From the IMG/VR virus record IMGVR_UViG_3300038468_000135, positions 1 to 23,497 of that record: DNA of 23,497 nt; one strand, given 5' to 3'. This document shows, piece after piece, positions 5,355-23,497 of this stretch. How positions within the stretch are numbered: the first letter of the stretch is position 1; every line of letters starts with the position of its first letter. A program made the translations under genes and the position numbers. The notes under the pieces were generated by a model that saw nothing but the letters and a program-made list of their open reading frames with translations, did no database searches and was not told where the DNA came from. The DNA is from a virus.

Positions 5355-5555
5355 ATGGCAACGGGCACGGTCAAATGGTTCAACGACGCAAAGGGCTTCG
5401 GCTTCATCACCGGCGACGACGGCACGGACTGTTTCGTGCACTACAGCAACATCCTGGGCCGCGGCCACCGGACGCTCGCCGACGGCGCGCGGGTTTCCTA
5501 CGACGTGGCGCAGAAGCCCAAGGGGCCCCAGGCGGAGAACGTGGAAGCCCTCTAA
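5355..5555 (+). CDS. Cold-shock domain protein (CspA family)
   Basis: The 66-residue protein is a full-length CSD. It opens MATGTVKWFNDAKGFGFI, which contains RNP1 (KGFGFI). RNP2 follows (CFVHYSNI), and it ends GPQAENVEAL. These aromatic and basic residues bind single-stranded nucleic acid, and the family acts as RNA chaperones or antiterminators. AAAGGAGG lies six bases before the ATG at 5355, which fixes the start. Its presence within the late operon of a Mu-like phage is unusual and suggests a host-derived moron. RNP2 starts with Cys rather than the usual Val or Leu. Confidence 0.9.
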   Translation: MATGTVKWFNDAKGFGFITGDDGTDCFVHYSNILGRGHRTLADGARVSYDVAQKPKGPQAENVEAL

Positions 5556-5556
5556 G

Positions 5557-5612
5557 GGATGCAGGATACAGGATGCACGATTTGGATCATGCATCATGGA
5601 TCATGAATCATG
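5557..5612. repeat. Heptamer array with opposing halves before the small terminase
   Basis: GGATGCA, GGATACA and GGATGCA units (5557-5577) are followed by GATCATG/ATCATGN-type units that run into the start codon. The two halves are partly complementary, for example GATGCA (5572-5577) with TGCATC (5590-5595). The array appears to have replaced the usual ribosome binding site of the next gene. It belongs to the same family as 21672-21733 and 22554-22617. Confidence 0.8.
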
Positions 5613-6137
5613 ACCAACCACACCAAAAAGCGCCGGCATTCGAAGTTCTTCTCCTTTCCTCCGGAGATCCAGGAGCAGGTAAAAGCGCTCCTGATCGAAC
5701 CCACCACGACCTATGACGACGTGGTGCAGTTTCTCAAGAGCAAGGGCTATGACTGGTCGGACTCGGGCGTCGAGCGGTTTTCGAAGTGGTTCTTCAACGA
5801 GATCCGCGAGACCGAGATGCTCCGGGACCAGGCGGCGCTCCTCCTGAACGAGCCCGAGCGGGCGTTGGAGCTCGAAAAACTCACGGCCACGATGATCACG
5901 AAGCGGCTGGCCATGGCCATGCAGCAGGATGACTTCAGCGTCCTGAAGCACGCCAAGATCATCGACGCCTTTGCCAAGCTGCAGAGGTCGAGCACGCAGC
6001 GGGAGCAGTACACGGCGGAGGTCCGGACAAGGGTTGCCAGGGCCGCGGAGAGCGTTGCAAAGATCGCAAAGAGCAAGGGCCTGACCGCCGACACGGTGAG
6101 CCAGATCAAGGACAAGATTCTGGGTATCGGAAAATGA
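5610..6137 (+). CDS. Small terminase subunit-like, DUF3486 (Mu gp27)
   Basis: The 175-residue product matches the DUF3486/gp27 family. It opens with basic residues, RHSKFFSFPPEIQEQVKALL, which is typical (lp-x-ei-x-x-v-x-x-ll). YDDVVQFLKSKGYDWSDSGV follows as a helix-turn-helix-like segment, then FSKWF and a long helical C-terminus. The start codon emerges from a heptamer array with no clear ribosome binding site. The stop overlaps the large terminase start (ATGA). Its expected role is to recognise the phage end and regulate the large subunit during headful packaging. Confidence 0.8.
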   Translation: MTNHTKKRRHSKFFSFPPEIQEQVKALLIEPTTTYDDVVQFLKSKGYDWSDSGVERFSKWFFNEIRETEMLRDQAALLLNEPERALELEKLTATMITKRLAMAMQQDDFSVLKHAKIIDAFAKLQRSSTQREQYTAEVRTRVARAAESVAKIAKSKGLTADTVSQIKDKILGIGK

Positions 6138-14223: not shown

Positions 14224-14880
14224 ATGAAACTCAAATCCGTTTTGATTGTCTGTCTTCTGTCCTCTGTCCTCTGTCTTCTGTCTTCCGCGGCCCAGGCCGC
14301 CTGCACCCAGGCGATCTCCACCAGCGCCAAGGGCAACTGGCTCAGCGGGCTCTTCCAGAAGGGCGACACCTACAAGATCGCCTTCTACCAGACTGCCGCG
14401 ACCTGGGACGCCACGACCGCGCAGTACAGTGCCACGAACGAGATCACCGGCACGAACTACTCTGCCGGCGGCTACGCGCTCGATTCCCTCGCCTACGGGA
14501 CAAGCGGGACGACGTACTGGATGGATTTTGCCGACGAGGTCCAGAACAGCGTGACCTTCGACCAGGCGTCTACCTGCGCCGTCATCTATGACGACACTGC
14601 CGCGAACACGTCCTGCACGGGCGCCGGCGCTCCCTGGCCGTGCTGCTCCGGCGCCGGGGCGGGCACCTGCCAGGACGCGGTCCTGGGAGTCTTCACCTTC
14701 ACGTCCGTCCAGCCCTCGGCCGGGACGCTCACGGTCACCTTCCCGACCGCGGATGCCTCGAATGCCATCATCCGGATCGCCCGGGGCGCACTGGACTGGA
14801 TATTCCCCGAGGCCTGGGCCGGGGACCGGATAGACGCCTACATCGAGCTTTCCGGCATCGTGCTTGAGGCGAAGCAATAG
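14224..14880 (+). CDS. Secreted phage-associated protein with heptamer-encoded signal peptide
   Basis: The 218-residue product starts with MKLKSVLIV and a hydrophobic core CLLSSVLCLLSS, ending AAQA-AC, a standard Sec cleavage site. The core is encoded exactly by five heptamer units at 14251-14285. The mature part is beta-rich and resembles a type seen beside Mu-like tails and heads. It has WLSGLFQKGDTYKIAFYQTA, YSAGGYALDSLAYG, YWMDFADEVQNSVTFDQAS and a C-terminal FTSVQPSAGTLTVTFP, followed by NAIIRIA. A Cys-rich loop (CTGAGAPWPCCSGAGAGTCQ) may hold disulfides, in keeping with export. AGGAGG precedes the ATG. Function is unknown; surface or virion appendage is possible. Confidence 0.65.
   Translation: MKLKSVLIVCLLSSVLCLLSSAAQAACTQAISTSAKGNWLSGLFQKGDTYKIAFYQTAATWDATTAQYSATNEITGTNYSAGGYALDSLAYGTSGTTYWMDFADEVQNSVTFDQASTCAVIYDDTAANTSCTGAGAPWPCCSGAGAGTCQDAVLGVFTFTSVQPSAGTLTVTFPTADASNAIIRIARGALDWIFPEAWAGDRIDAYIELSGIVLEAKQ
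14251..14285 (+). repeat. Heptamer array encoding a signal-peptide core
   Basis: Five 7-bp units (TGTCTTC, TGTCCTC, TGTCCTC, TGTCTTC, TGTCTTC) lie in frame and encode residues 10-21 of the secreted protein. Confidence 0.92.
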
Positions 14881-14896
14881 GCGCACATGACCGCCG

Positions 14897-17800
14897 ATGA
14901 AAAGACTCGCCCTCATGCTCTGCCTCGCCCTCGCGCTGCCGGGGGCGGCCGTCGCCGCCCACACCTACGACACGCAGGGGACATCGGCCTCCTACGGCAC
15001 GGCGGACCCGCACACGATCTCCTACACCTGCGGCGCGGGCACGACGCTCCTGGTGCTCATGGTCGAGCACAACGCGCAGTCGCGCACGGGCGGGACGCCC
15101 ACCTACAACGGCGTCAACATGACGCAGGTGGGGACGGAGATCCGGAACGCCCAGGAGGTCGGCGTCGAGATGTGGTACATGCTGAACCCGCCCACGGGCT
15201 CGGCCTATGACATCGTCGTGCAGAACGATTTGCCCATCGATATGCGGATAACGGCAGCGTCATTCAAGGCGGGGAGCGGCTACGCCTCGGCGCTCTTCGA
15301 CTACGCCACGGACAACGTGGACAAGCAGAACACGTCGCTCACGGTGAGCAGCGTGCCGGCGGGCTCGGTCTGCCTCGACGTCCTGGGCCACGGCTACACG
15401 AACCCGCCCACGGCGCGGTCGCACACGCTCATCTACACCCACGACCCCGGCGCCCTGTCATTTGAGACGCAGTACGGGCTGATCGACTCGACCGGAGACG
15501 TCACGATGACGCACACGCTCGGCGGCTCCGATGACGTGGCGAACATCATGGCCTGTTTCGAGGAAGTGGCAAGCGGCGCGACCGTGAACCTGTCCGGCCA
15601 GGGGACTGCCGCCTCCCCCGGGACGCTCGCCGTCACCGCGGCCACGGACGGCACGGCAACGCTCTCCGGCGGCGCATCTGCGGCGACCGCGGGAAGCATG
15701 TCGATCGCCGGCGGCACGGGAGCGACGGCGGCGCTCTCCGGCAGCGGAGCGACGGCGACTGCGGGCGGGCTCACCGTGGCCGGAGGAGCATCGGCGGCCG
15801 TGACGCTCTCCGGGAAATCGATGGCCGCCTCCGCTGGGAACCCCGGGGCGCACGATACGCCGATGTTCGCCAGCCTCGATCCCCACGGCAGGGCGACGAT
15901 CACGACCGTCCAGGTCCCGTCCACCGGCATTGTCTGGAGCAAGCGCGTTCCCGGCGGCTCCTGGGTGCAGATCGCCTCAACGGGGGCGGGCGTGCAGTCG
16001 ATCGTGGACAAGCGGCCCACGAAGCACTACCAGTGGGTCGCCTACAGCGGCAGCGGCGCGATGGACCTCACCTTCACCGGGACCGAGTTTGCCATATTCA
16101 CGGCCCCCCGCGCGGACCAGTCAGGATACATCGACACGACGGTCGGGACCTCATCCACGTCAAATTCACTCACCGTCGGGCAAAAGACGTTCACGGTCGC
16201 CGCCGGGCTGCCGCTTACCATGGGGCAATCCCTGAAGATCTGCCGTACCGGGTACACGTCGGCGTATTTTTTCCGGGGGACGGTCAACTCCTATTCCGGC
16301 ACCACTCTGGTCGTCGACGTGACGAGCGTCTTCAGCACGGGGACCTACTCCGCATGGACTATCCAGACCCGGGAGAATTTCAACATCCCCGCCTCGGCGG
16401 TTGACCGCATTGATTGGGAGAACACTGTCGGCAAGCTTGTCTACGGCAGGAGCGGTCTCACGAACGAGGCCCACACGATGAACATCTGCCCGGTCGATAA
16501 CAGCGGCGGGCTGGAGTGGGATGGGGAGTCCTGGAATCCGGTTCCCTTCACCTCGGTCTACAAGGGCTACTGGTACTCCGATTTTTCATCGTCCTGGGGC
16601 GAGGAGATCGAATACAAGGCGGTGATCGACGGCGGGACGACCGAGACCGTCACGGTAACCCCGGTGGTCAACCGGGGGCTCGCCATCCAGTCCATCGTAG
16701 ATCGGCTAATCGCCGGAAACAGCTTCACGAACTACCCGGCGAACATGCAGCAGGTCACGCCCTGGTCGAATTACAACGAGATGATCGGGGTCGTGGCCTA
16801 TGCCTACTACATGACGCAAGACGCCCGGCTCGTGGGCATCGCCGAGGACATCTACGACGCCTATATCGCCAACAGCAACGGCACGACTGGCATCATCAAC
16901 GACCAGCCGGACTATCCGAACGGCCACCTGCTGGTGGACGGCCGTACAGCCTATAACTATTATTTCGCCTATCAGGTCTTCAATGATTCCCGCTACCTCG
17001 ACGTGGCGGACAAGATCGCCGGGACGCTGAGAAACAGTTGGAATAAAAACGGCTCGAACGTCTGGTATCCCGTCTCGAACGCATCGTCGGGACTCCCCGG
17101 CGTGCCGAACCACAGGACTGCGGCCAGCTACAGCCTGGCGCTTCTCTACAACGAGCCGAACTCGGACTGGTATCAGGATGCAACGGTCTCTACCATCCTC
17201 ATCGCCAACGCCGACTATGCCGTCAACGACGGCGTGAACGGAAGCCAGATCAACGTCTCGACCGGCGCGACGCGCTACGCGCCCGGCACGGATGCTACCG
17301 AAGAGCATTTGTATGGACAGTACGAATGGGAGCATCTCCAGTATATTTCCGATTCCTTCACATGGGAAGCCACACTCATCGGCAAGATGCGGGACTGGCT
17401 CGTCGATTCCTTCCCGTGGACCGAGCCGTACTTTTTCCGCTCGGAGTTCTATTGGATCCAGTCGAATGCTTTCGCCCTTTCGCGGGCCGCGGCGAAGTAC
17501 GTGAAGGACGGGACAATCCCGCAGGATTACATCAACACCCTCTATTCGGCGGCATTCGACACGATCCCCCTGACGAGCGCAGACAGCGGTTATGTGCCAG
17601 ACGGCACGGCCCAGTCCTCCGCGCCGATCAACGACATCGAGACGGAATGGCCCGACGGCGTGATCTTCAGCGGGTATGCCATCCCGGCGCTCCTCAACAA
17701 CGATGTCCCGAAGAACCTTTGGGCATGGGAAGGGCTGTTCAGCAATCCGGTTGTGACCTTCTTCGACCTTCCTGCCACGAGCAATTCGCTCACGGTCAAT

Positions 17801-18742
17801 GTGACCGCGTTCAATGCGACGGATGACGTGCTCGTGACGGGATACAAGATAACCGAAAGCGCCACCCCTCCGGGGGCGGGGGATGCGGGCTGGACAAGCA
17901 CAGCGCCCGCAACCGTCACGGCATCGGGAGAGGGGAGCATAACCTTTTACCCCTGGGTGAAAGACGGCAACAGCAACGTGTCCGCCGTGTATCCCTATCC
18001 CGAGACCGTCGCCATCAGCCTCGGGGTCACGCTCGTCGGCCAGGGGGCCACGGCCTCTCGCGGCACGCTCGCCGTGTCCGGGAATGTAGGCATCCCCCTC
18101 GCCGGGGAAGGCGCAACAGCCGCTCGCGGGACGCTCACCGTGTCCGGGGGCGCAAGCATCTCTCTCGCTGGGGAAGGGTCAACGGCTTCGCGAGGGACCC
18201 TTACGCCGGGCATCCAGGCGGATGGCGCCGCGACGCTCACCGGAGAAGCCGCGACGGCAAGCCGAGGCACGCTCGCCGTGTCCGGGGATGCGGGGATATC
18301 CCTCTCCGGGGAAGCCGCGACAGCATCGCGCGGCACGATCACGGTGTCCGGTGATGCGGGGATCTCCCTCGCCGGGGAAGGCGCAACGGCAAGCCGCGGG
18401 ACGCTGATTGCAAATGTTACCGCTGATGGGACCGCAGTGCTCGCCGGGGAAGCGGCAACGGCATCGCGCGGGACGCTCGCCGTGTCCGGGAATGCGGGGA
18501 TATCCCTCGCCGGAGAGAGCGCAACGACATCGCGCGGCGACCTCAGTGTAATTTCCGGGACCGTCGCGCCCCTCTCCGGATCCGGGAGCGCGGCAGGGAG
18601 CGGGACGCTCGCCGTGTCCGGCAACGCGGCGATACCGCTCTCCGGCCAGGCGATGGTAGCCTCTGCCGGGAGTCTCGGCGTATCGGGCGGAGGCGGCGCG
18701 TTCAAGCCGGCCTGGGTGAGGCCGCAGGAGGTGGTTCAATGA
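14897..18742 (+). CDS. Giant secreted multidomain repeat protein (1281 aa)
   Basis: The signal peptide is MKRLALMLCLALALPGAAVA, with cleavage before AHTYD. Residues 21-225 form a beta-rich domain. Residues about 228-316 hold four repeats of exactly 24 residues (LSG-x-G-x-x-A-x-x-G-x-L type). Residues about 316-590 are mixed beta. Residues about 590-950 look helical, with repeated helix pairs (YNEMIGVVAYAYYMTQDARL, YNYYFAYQVFNDSRYLDVAD, YSLALLYNEP), reminiscent of an alpha/alpha toroid of glycan-active enzymes; no catalytic pair is assigned. About 950-1035 is an Ig-like domain (VTGYKITESATPP, then ITFYPWVKDGNSNVSA). Residues about 1039-1268 hold ten repeats of 22 or 24 residues (GEGATASRGTLAVSG type). 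There is no strong ribosome binding site; translation may be coupled. Likely a surface adhesin, glycan-binding or depolymerase-type cargo. Confidence 0.7.
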   Translation: MKRLALMLCLALALPGAAVAAHTYDTQGTSASYGTADPHTISYTCGAGTTLLVLMVEHNAQSRTGGTPTYNGVNMTQVGTEIRNAQEVGVEMWYMLNPPTGSAYDIVVQNDLPIDMRITAASFKAGSGYASALFDYATDNVDKQNTSLTVSSVPAGSVCLDVLGHGYTNPPTARSHTLIYTHDPGALSFETQYGLIDSTGDVTMTHTLGGSDDVANIMACFEEVASGATVNLSGQGTAASPGTLAVTAATDGTATLSGGASAATAGSMSIAGGTGATAALSGSGATATAGGLTVAGGASAAVTLSGKSMAASAGNPGAHDTPMFASLDPHGRATITTVQVPSTGIVWSKRVPGGSWVQIASTGAGVQSIVDKRPTKHYQWVAYSGSGAMDLTFTGTEFAIFTAPRADQSGYIDTTVGTSSTSNSLTVGQKTFTVAAGLPLTMGQSLKICRTGYTSAYFFRGTVNSYSGTTLVVDVTSVFSTGTYSAWTIQTRENFNIPASAVDRIDWENTVGKLVYGRSGLTNEAHTMNICPVDNSGGLEWDGESWNPVPFTSVYKGYWYSDFSSSWGEEIEYKAVIDGGTTETVTVTPVVNRGLAIQSIVDRLIAGNSFTNYPANMQQVTPWSNYNEMIGVVAYAYYMTQDARLVGIAEDIYDAYIANSNGTTGIINDQPDYPNGHLLVDGRTAYNYYFAYQVFNDSRYLDVADKIAGTLRNSWNKNGSNVWYPVSNASSGLPGVPNHRTAASYSLALLYNEPNSDWYQDATVSTILIANADYAVNDGVNGSQINVSTGATRYAPGTDATEEHLYGQYEWEHLQYISDSFTWEATLIGKMRDWLVDSFPWTEPYFFRSEFYWIQSNAFALSRAAAKYVKDGTIPQDYINTLYSAAFDTIPLTSADSGYVPDGTAQSSAPINDIETEWPDGVIFSGYAIPALLNNDVPKNLWAWEGLFSNPVVTFFDLPATSNSLTVNVTAFNATDDVLVTGYKITESATPPGAGDAGWTSTAPATVTASGEGSITFYPWVKDGNSNVSAVYPYPETVAISLGVTLVGQGATASRGTLAVSGNVGIPLAGEGATAARGTLTVSGGASISLAGEGSTASRGTLTPGIQADGAATLTGEAATASRGTLAVSGDAGISLSGEAATASRGTITVSGDAGISLAGEGATASRGTLIANVTADGTAVLAGEAATASRGTLAVSGNAGISLAGESATTSRGDLSVISGTVAPLSGSGSAAGSGTLAVSGNAAIPLSGQAMVASAGSLGVSGGGGAFKPAWVRPQEVVQ

Positions 18743-19461
18743 AAAACCGCATAGCGCATAGAGCATGGAGCATAGGGCTTCTTCTGTTCGTTGCCCTCTG
18801 CTCTCTGCCCTCTGTTGTTCCCGCCCTTCAGCGAAACGTCTCCAGCCAGACCATCTGCGCGGAGCTCGTCTCGAAGACCGACGGGTCGGCCGTCACCACG
18901 GGCACGACCACGGTCTACGTCACGGGCGACGGCGGCGCCCAGGCGGAAGGGTCCGGCACGGTAACGCACGAGGGCCAGGGGCTCTGGTGCTACGCACCGA
19001 CGCAGGCAGACACCAATTATTCGCATGTCGCGTTTACATTCGCGAACAGTTCCGCGGTCCCTCAAACGGTCCAGACCTATCCCGGCGGCGTCTTCGCCAC
19101 GGCGCTCTCTCCCGGCGTGCTCTCGGACGTGATCACCGTGTCGGCCTCGGCCGTGGATATCCGGCGCGGCGACGTGGTGACGTTCACGTTCAGCCTGGGT
19201 CCGAGCTGGCCCTTGACCGGGAAGAAAGCCTACTTCATCGCGAAGAAAGACCGGACCGCATCAAACTCGACGGCCATCGTGAACCGCGAATGCACGGTGA
19301 CCGACGCGGCGAACGGCGTCGCCGAGATCGCGCTGACCGATGCCGAGACCGCTGCCGTCGGGAGCTATTACGCCGAGGTCGAGGTGCGGGATGCGGACGA
19401 CACGAACCCGAAGACCGCGCGGCAGTTCACGCTCAGGATCAGCCAGGACGTGAGGCAGTGA
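18739..19461 (+). CDS. Secreted two-domain Ig-like protein, BppU-like C-terminus
   Basis: The 240-residue product starts in an ATGA overlap with the giant gene. Its first 30 residues form a signal sequence (IGLLLFVALCSLPSVVPA) encoded largely by heptamer arrays. Domain 1 (about 32-115) is beta-rich, with SSQTICAELVSKTDGSAVTT and GTVTHEGQGLWCYAPTQADT. Domain 2 (about 138-240) has VDIRRGDVVTFTFSLG, WPLTGKKAYFIAKKDR and GSYYAEVEVRDADD, ending in TARQFTLRISQDV. That order resembles the N-terminal Ig-like domain of baseplate upper proteins (BppU). A tail-fibre or host-contact link is inferred. The signal sequence is unusual for a virion part. Confidence 0.65.
   Translation: MKNRIAHRAWSIGLLLFVALCSLPSVVPALQRNVSSQTICAELVSKTDGSAVTTGTTTVYVTGDGGAQAEGSGTVTHEGQGLWCYAPTQADTNYSHVAFTFANSSAVPQTVQTYPGGVFATALSPGVLSDVITVSASAVDIRRGDVVTFTFSLGPSWPLTGKKAYFIAKKDRTASNSTAIVNRECTVTDAANGVAEIALTDAETAAVGSYYAEVEVRDADDTNPKTARQFTLRISQDVRQ
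18749..18814 (-). repeat. Composite heptamer element encoding a signal sequence (reverse copy of the gemA element)
   Basis: GCATAGN units (18749-18776) are followed, after a short spacer, by CCCTCTG-type units (18794-18814). Read in reverse complement this is the GCAGAGN...CTATGCN composite found at 813-877. Confidence 0.8.
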
Positions 19462-21666: not shown

Positions 21667-21671
21667 AAAAA

Positions 21672-21733
21672 CGATCCATGATTCATGATACATGACTTGT
21701 ATCCTGTATCCTGAATCGTGCATCCTGCATCTC
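21672..21733. repeat. Opposing heptamer array before the tail chaperone gene
   Basis: GATTCAT/GATACAT units (left) face ATCCTGN units (right). GATTCATGATACA on the left pairs with TGTATCCTGAATC on the right with one mismatch, so the element can form a long imperfect hairpin. It is the same family as 5557-5612 and 22554-22617. AAGGAGG of the next gene follows it. Confidence 0.85.
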
Positions 21734-21747
21734 TTTAAGGAGGCCCC

Positions 21748-22164
21748 ATGCTCATCGTCACCACCAGACACGACGGCACCCCCGAGACCCTGCGGCTCAC
21801 GGTCCAGGGCTGTGAGATCGAGATCGACGTCCGGCCCTGCTACGCCGAGGACTACGACGAGCTCGAGCGCAGGTCCTACATCGTCGAGTTTGCCAAGGAC
21901 CCGGACACCAAGGAGATGAAGCGCGTCTCCACCCTGGACAAGGTGCGGCTCTTCGAGAACCGCATCGACCACGCGATCGTAGCCTTCCGCGGCGTGGGGG
22001 AGGCAAAGGACAAGCCCTGGCCCGCGGACCGCAAGCACAAGCTGCTCCTCGTCCGGCTCAACACCGGAGACGATCCGCCCATCTGGAAGGTCGTATTCGA
22101 TCGGTCGCGAGAGCTCGCCCAGGAGCGGCTCGAGGCCGAGGAGGAGGCGAGAAAAAACTCCTAG
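21748..22164 (+). CDS. Tail assembly chaperone, short form (gpG-like)
   Basis: The 138-residue product starts after AAGGAGG. It begins with beta strands (LIVTTRHDGTPETLRLTVQG, IEIDVRPCYAEDYDEL) and ends in a charged helix, RSRELAQERLEAEEEARK. It lies between the tail tube and tape measure genes, where long-tailed phages encode the chaperone pair made by frameshifting (lambda G and GT). A canonical -1 slip site overlaps its last sense codons. The sequence alone shows no named domain, so position and frameshift signal carry the call. Confidence 0.75.
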   Translation: MLIVTTRHDGTPETLRLTVQGCEIEIDVRPCYAEDYDELERRSYIVEFAKDPDTKEMKRVSTLDKVRLFENRIDHAIVAFRGVGEAKDKPWPADRKHKLLLVRLNTGDDPPIWKVVFDRSRELAQERLEAEEEARKNS

Positions 22165-22194
22165 CCCTCGCCGGGGCCTTCTGCTCCGGCGAGG
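22152..22194 (+). promoter_or_regulatory. Programmed -1 ribosomal frameshift signal
   Basis: The heptamer A AAA AAC (22152-22158) is in the correct phase of the upstream frame (aga-aaa-aac). A 7-nt spacer (22159-22165) contains the zero-frame stop TAG. A perfect 9-bp stem follows: CCTCGCCGG (22166-22174) with CCGGCGAGG (22186-22194), loop 11 nt. Slippage by -1 enters a frame open to 22562. All three elements of a -1 frameshift site are present. Confidence 0.88.
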
Positions 22195-22562
22195 CGTGTG
22201 ACGTGCATCAGGGCAACCGGGACATCTGGCGGCTCCTCGTCACCGCGGCCCGCCAGTGGCGGACGTGGGTGTTGACGGAGGCGGTCCGGACGTCGTCCGG
22301 CCACCCCGTCCCGGTCGTGGCCTCCCGGTTCTGCGGCCTGGACATGGGCGCCCTGGCATTGATGGCCCCGGCCTTCGGCCTCGATGCCAATCAAAGCTTC
22401 TTTGAAAAGCTCCGCGTCTTCGAGGCCGAGTGCCTGCGCATATGGGCAGCCGAGGCCTCGGGCGCGTGCACCGAGAAAAAGAAGCAGGAGTGCGCGGCCC
22501 GGCACGGAAAATTTTTGGAGTGGGCATGCAGCAAGTGCCCGGATAAACCAAAAGATGCATGA
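22158..22562 (+). CDS. -1 frame extension of the tail assembly chaperone (gpT-like part of GT)
   Basis: After slippage the frame reads LLALAGAFCSGEACDV and continues with HQGNRDIWRLLVTAARQWRT to the stop at 22560-22562. This gives a fusion of about 271 residues (137 from the upstream frame plus 134). A GTG at 22203 with GAGG nearby could in principle start an independent 119-aa protein. However, the upstream 15 codons are open and the frameshift signal is canonical, so fusion is the better model. The C-terminal half is Cys-rich (CGLD, CLRIW, CTEK, CAAR, CSKC). The stop codon lies within a heptamer array. Confidence 0.75.
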   Translation, partial: LLALAGAFCSGEACDVHQGNRDIWRLLVTAARQWRTWVLTEAVRTSSGHPVPVVASRFCGLDMGALALMAPAFGLDANQSFFEKLRVFEAECLRIWAAEASGACTEKKKQECAARHGKFLEWACSKCPDKPKDA

Positions 22563-22617
22563 TACATGATGCAGGTTTTAAATCCTGTATCCTGAATCCT
22601 GCATCCTGGATCGTTTT
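22554..22617. repeat. Opposing heptamer array before the tape measure gene
   Basis: GATGCAT, GATACAT, GATGCAG (left) face ATCCTGN units (right) around GTTTTAA. GATGCAGG (22568-22575) pairs with CCTGCATC (22598-22605). A TTTTT run follows and abuts the ATG of the tape measure gene, so the element also looks like a terminator or attenuator. No separate ribosome binding site is visible. Confidence 0.85.
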
Positions 22618-22618
22618 T

Positions 22619-23497
22619 ATGGACAACATCGTCAAACTGATCGTCGAGACCGACGCCTCCGGCGCCGTGGTCGGCCTCCGTACCGTGAAGGACGAGGCCG
22701 AGAAGGCCGGCGCCGTGGTCAAGTCCTCCGGCGAGGCCGGCAGGCTCGGCTTCTTCGCCCTCGGGCAGTCCGTCGAGGACGCCGCCGCCAGCATGGGCGT
22801 GGCCCGCCAGGCCACCCGCCAGCTCGGCAACTCCGTCGAGCGCATGGCCGCCAGCGCCCTCCCCGGATTCGGCACGGCCCTGGGCGTGGCCACCCTCGCC
22901 GTCACCGCCGCCGTCGCGATCTACAATAAATTCATTGACGATCAGGAAGAGCTCCGCAATGCCGTCATCGAATCCGGCAACGCCCTGGCCGATGAGGTGA
23001 TCGGCCTCGAGAAGAACCGCGTGGCCACGGAAAACGCCCGCAAGGCCCACTACGACCTCTACCTCATGAAGCGCCGGATCGCCGTCAAGGAGCTGGAGCT
23101 GGCCATCGAGGCCCAGACCGAGAAGATCAAGGAACAGGTCGAGACGATCAACGACGGCGGCACGACCCTGTCAAAGTTTAAGCGGCTTTTTACGACGGCC
23201 TTCGACTGGAAGGGCGCGGCGTTCGAGAACCGCACGATCGTCGAGGCCTGGGCCGAGCAAACGGTCAAGGACCTGGAAAAGCCGCGGAACGAGCTCGAAA
23301 AGTCCGTCCTGGCCCTCGCCGGGATGTACGTCAAGATGAAGGACCTCGGCAATACAGCGCTGCCGAAGAGCACGTTCGAAGAGGGCTCCTATGACGAAGA
23401 GAAATCCACGGGCCTCACGGCGAAGGAAATATACGAGGCGGACATGGCCGAGATGGCCCGGACGCGCGAGCTGGACATCGAGAACGCCCAGGCCTAC
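22619..23497 (+). CDS. Tape measure protein, N-terminal part (runs off the window)
   Basis: The frame is open for 293 codons to the window end without a stop. It begins MDNIVKLIVETDASGAVVGL, a typical tape measure opening (strand, then a long helix with KDEAEKAGAVVKSSGEAGRL). A hydrophobic segment follows at about 80-102 (LPGFGTALGVATLAVTAAVA). Long charged coiled coils come after that (KELELAIEAQTEKIKEQVET). The protein sets tail length and is ejected with the DNA. The ATG directly follows the T-run of a heptamer array. The missing 3' part prevents a length estimate. Confidence 0.85.
   Translation, partial: MDNIVKLIVETDASGAVVGLRTVKDEAEKAGAVVKSSGEAGRLGFFALGQSVEDAAASMGVARQATRQLGNSVERMAASALPGFGTALGVATLAVTAAVAIYNKFIDDQEELRNAVIESGNALADEVIGLEKNRVATENARKAHYDLYLMKRRIAVKELELAIEAQTEKIKEQVETINDGGTTLSKFKRLFTTAFDWKGAAFENRTIVEAWAEQTVKDLEKPRNELEKSVLALAGMYVKMKDLGNTALPKSTFEEGSYDEEKSTGLTAKEIYEADMAEMARTRELDIENAQAY

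Follow-up and report, generated by a model that had tools for sequence, protein, structure and literature searches.

A probable lambda-type -1 frameshift between tail assembly chaperone genes G and T of a Mu-like phage

The stretch of DNA analyzed here (the window) is a 23,497-base IMG/VR virus record, possibly a fragment, that carries a Mu-like phage gene set comprising a gp27-like protein, terminase, Portal_Mu, gpT, gp36 and gp37. Its gpT major head protein is 48-52% identical to the best phage relatives among the matches listed. A probable tail tube gene, a cassette of overlapping genes G and T, and the start of a tape-measure-like gene running to the window end follow in that order 3' of gp37 (Table 1). 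A Mu-style pair of sheath-sized and tube-sized genes is absent from the window, which would fit a flexible-tailed relative of Mu.

Table 1. Coordinates of the G/T cassette and its neighbors in the window
Feature	Position	Strand	Basis
Probable tail tube gene, 427 aa	20383..21666	+	Gene order only
Gene G: tail assembly chaperone, zero-frame product, 138 aa	21748..22164	+	Position as G of DUF1799/Phage_TAC_4 phages
Slippery heptamer A_AAA_AAC, in phase with G	22152..22158	+	In-phase XXXYYYZ in the equivalent position at 54 further distinct junctions
T part, -1 frame, 134 aa	22158..22562	+	PHROG 680 match; related to DUF1799
Zero-frame stop TAG of G, one codon past the slip	22162..22164	+	Sequence
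Putative stimulatory hairpin, 7 nt past the slip	22166..22194	+	Pairing, predicted fold
GTG-start ORF inside T, 119 aa, likely annotated as its own gene	22203..22562	+	ORF list
Tape measure gene start, cut by the window end	22619..23497	+	Weak N-terminal similarity to homologues' tape measures; gene order

Several other features of the window were recorded. A complete gene for a cold-shock domain protein (CSD, E 5e-26) is found at 5355-5555, just 5' of gp27. A 1281-aa protein is encoded in an unusual place, between the major head gene and gp36 (14897-18742); it has internal 66/204-nt repeats at 18046-18538 and a weak, below-cutoff match to glucuronyl C5-epimerase, and its gene is adjoined by that of a BppU_N-like protein (18739-19461). 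A 62-nt direct repeat, 95% identical (110-171 and 441-502), lies over the starts of two small reading frames. Among relatives with long contigs, the closest in their head genes, L005 and L006, have gpT proteins 55-60% identical to that of the window and, compared with window 12-23 kb, lack a recognizable counterpart of its tail module, the switch from head to tail genes forming a sharp mosaic boundary. Across the whole window, no Rfam family attained its gathering score.

Stretches with a 7-nt period occur seven times (809-844, 1043-1085, 5582-5615, 14245-14290, 18748-18779, 21698-21732 and 22581-22615). Their unit sequences differ, and some are intergenic while others lie inside reading frames. 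The same repeat scan found none at periods 4-6, 8, 9 and 11, and one at period 10. Three related period-7 elements of about 68 nt were recognized (5554-5621, 21669-21736 and 22550-22617), the last two flanking the G/T cassette and the last containing the T stop. Both flanking elements have predicted hairpins built of short helices with single mismatches (z -4.9 and -5.7).

A ribosome site, AAGGAGG, stands just 5' of G, which ends in the zero frame as ...AGA AAA AAC TCC TAG. The spacer between heptamer and hairpin, TCCTAGC (7 nt, 22159-22165), includes the TAG. The -1 frame is without stops from 21816 to 22562, open on both sides of the slip, and ends in TGA at 22560-22562; a shift at the heptamer would join 137 residues to the 134 of T in a predicted G-T fusion of 271. 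Directly downstream of the spacer, CCTCGCCGG (22166-22174) pairs perfectly with CCGGCGAGG (22186-22194) over 9 bp. The predicted fold has 12 contiguous pairs (22166-22177/22183-22194) around a 5-nt loop, at -26.9 kcal/mol. Relative to shuffles, the hairpin scored z = -3.9 over 35 nt and -3.3 over 45 nt, and a longer stretch of 72 nt only -1.8. An earlier note on this DNA had claimed the in-phase heptamer, the stop-bearing 7-nt spacer, the open -1 frame and the perfect 9-bp stem, and all were confirmed.

AAAAAAC alone is unremarkable, with 4 copies in the window versus 1.1 expected. Heptamers of the form XXXYYYZ occupy 7 of 5526 in-phase codon positions of the called genes, and only one of these seven, the A_AAA_AAC of G, falls within 80 nt of its own gene's stop. 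Perfect hairpins of at least 9 bp, 4-10 nt downstream, accompany 5 of 5512 in-phase positions. A chance coincidence of all these signals is improbable. The cassette is known from a single metagenomic contig, with no second copy found, as might be the case were heptamer and stem coincidental, or had the frame break arisen from faulty sequencing or assembly of a decayed prophage. Given the joint rarity of the signals within the window, the intact appearance of the neighboring genes and the recurrence of this frame break, again with a slip site, in phage genome records, we rate chance or damage as negligible.

The T part matched PHROG 680 (E 3.6e-6), which leads to a family carrying Pfam DUF1799, and our own profile of 57 homologous T parts (E 7e-7, one-sequence search). 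It carries the QWR...GLD (QWR...GLDY) core of DUF1799, which underlies the match to our profile; the Pfam DUF1799 model itself was not reached by window T. As queries against viral contigs, the window's G, T, tail tube, tape measure and gp36 gave no match, nor did G, T and tube against phage records or T against plasmids. Because direct searches were empty, conservation was tested on distant relatives, to which PHROG 680 and the head gene gpT gave access. The collection scan worked with a T alignment of 3 closer sequences, one of 7 having been too diverse. Junctions were read in phage records, IMG/VR contigs and bacterial genomes, yielding 55 distinct ones, window included. They derive from phages and prophages of Alphaproteobacteria, a cyanobacterium and Enterobacterales, and those of related phages are not independent events.

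Each of the 55 distinct junctions places the DUF1799 part in the -1 frame relative to the upstream gene and has an in-phase XXXYYYZ where that gene ends: GGGAAAC (40), AAAAAAC (13), AAAAAAG (1) or GGGTTTG (1). In most homologous junctions a stop directly follows the heptamer. One peptide pattern of the genome scan included slip codons, biasing the loci it found towards AAAC; the 27 junctions found without a slip-containing peptide comprised GGGAAAC (17), AAAAAAC (8), AAAAAAG (1) and GGGTTTG (1). The RcapMu record annotates a "potential -1 frameshift" at the equivalent place. The six A's at 22152-22157 could instead join the frames by transcriptional rather than ribosomal slippage. A run of six is short for polymerase slippage; moreover, the heptamer prevailing at this place, GGGAAAC, is without a long homopolymer, and the 7-nt distance to the stem is consistent with pausing of the ribosome. 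Slippage by the polymerase is thus scarcely credible here.

The comparison of homologues proposed in the earlier note upheld the slip site, invariably in the same phase, and the stem only in part. Downstream stems of homologous junctions had a mean z of -1.3 (n = 51), being strong in some and absent in others; very strong stems (z < -4) were seen at L109, L126, L141 and G007, and many junctions were near zero. The stem is a frequent, not constant, companion of the slip site in this family, and this variability is in line with a previous account of downstream stems as often, not always, present (PMC3483164). In E. coli, A_AAA_AAG shifts more readily than A_AAA_AAC does (PMC5009743), and we speculate that the strong hairpin of the window is perhaps owed to this difference.

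Relatives' records list T as a gene of its own, an annotation that the earlier note had foreseen for the downstream ORF. T might indeed be expressed from GTG 22203 by reinitiation or internal initiation past the TAG, with no functional frameshift. The sequence GAGG, 8 nt upstream of this GTG, leaves internal initiation possible, and the 38 nt between TAG and GTG may be within reinitiation range. In the predicted fold, however, pairing within the hairpin sequesters this GAGG, which is part of the 3' arm. Among the 55 junctions no independent T start codon is conserved, the first ATG, GTG or TTG in the T frame past the slip varying from codon 3 to codon 114 across homologues. Furthermore, in most homologous T parts KL..AGR.WA..G begins immediately at the slip, ahead of the first possible start codon. 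The window's own slip-to-GTG codons, KLLALAGAFCSGE, outscore about 98-99% of control peptides on the homologue profile, which lends modest but independent support to their translation. The earlier note had named as contrary evidence a conserved start and ribosome binding site at 22203 in homologues that had neither slip site nor stem; what we found was scattered starts and a slip heptamer in every junction. A separate T gene is consequently very unlikely. The hairpin might also have a double duty, stimulating slippage while the GAGG of its 3' arm serves GTG 22203, such that free T is started once a terminating or shifting ribosome has opened the hairpin. We consider this very unlikely; if true, three products, namely G, GT and T, would arise from the locus in coupled amounts. 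Three alternatives were rejected: a separate start (no conserved start in homologues), transcriptional slippage (GGGAAAC in 40 of 55 junctions) and chance or decay (the frame break recurs in homologues).

Window G had no match in Pfam, including Phage_TAC_4 (PF08748), or in PHROGs, and its sequence similarity to the G proteins of homologues is marginal. It is classed by position and T partner, not as a member of Phage_TAC_4. When upstream partners were compared (alignment A2, window included), 5 of 7 matched PHROG 569 and 2 matched Pfam Phage_TAC_4. The placement of the cassette between tail tube and tape measure, also proposed earlier, agrees with gene order and with the weak similarity of the downstream gene to tape measures. 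The 427-aa ORF in the tube position had no detected homologue, and its structure model was worthless (pLDDT 31). One large ORF likewise separates gp37 from G in RS1 and vB_ThpS-P1. PHROGs 569 and 680 are labeled "tail length tape measure protein" and their members occupy the G and T positions. In several phage records (L093, L094, L095 and L096 among them), G and/or T bear the same name beside the true tape measure. The label is apparently a carry-over from the neighboring gene.

The arrangement in the window resembles that of phages with DUF1799 and Phage_TAC_4 G/GT genes, namely Rhodobacter phage RcapMu, Rhodovulum RS1, Thiobacimonas vB_ThpS-P1, Synechococcus S-CBS1, Dhillonvirus HK578 and SO-1. 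In these, as in the window, G is followed by T in the -1 frame, with a slip site at the G end and the tape measure next. The window shares a Mu-like head with RcapMu, RS1 and ThpS-P1, and an AAAAAAC slip with HK578, SO-1 and S-CBS1. It differs in having its stop one codon after the heptamer rather than directly after it, a much diverged T with an extra C-terminal stretch, and a barely recognizable G. Phage lambda G/GT likewise relies on -1 slippage to obtain a pair of products from a single start, 5' of the tape measure gene; its slip site is GGGAAAG, unlike the AAAAAAC of the window. In Burkholderia phage KL1, a GGGAAAC directly before TGA and a downstream stem are predicted at gp18/gp19 (PMC3483164). 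KL1 and the window thus have in common a predicted slip before the stop and a downstream stem, whereas KL1 has an extra gene 5' of the tape measure and another heptamer. Mu-like P. aeruginosa phages of the D3112 group, whose head genes are related to those of the window, have a predicted -1 frameshift between tail assembly genes, with a proposed slip, TTTTTTC, that unlike that of the window lies 43 codons before the stop (PMC4378225).

Collectively, sequence signals and homologous junctions indicate that the cassette very probably undergoes lambda G/GT-type programmed -1 ribosomal frameshifting, with G (138 aa) and a G-T fusion (271 aa) as its products. Slippage itself, its rate and the assembly roles of G and GT are what we infer. 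Most ribosomes would stop at TAG and release G. In a minority, held up at the hairpin 7 nt past the slip, the P- and A-site tRNAs would re-pair from AAA/AAC to AAA/AAA, and these ribosomes would continue in the -1 frame to produce the 271-aa fusion. By analogy with lambda, G would form a coat around the tape measure protein, to which the T part would recruit tail tube subunits. The G/GT mechanism has been reviewed as one in which much G and little GT are made, G binding the tape measure and T the tube subunit (PMC5009743). The cassette is a previously unrecorded example of a known frameshift mechanism in long-tailed phages, and no new mechanism is implied. The 55 junctions serve as a conservation table for a single chaperone family: the heptamer is retained, and a strong downstream stem is not always seen. 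The finding also corrects annotation, in that T of this phage, and of many phages with DUF1799, should be joined to the gene upstream.
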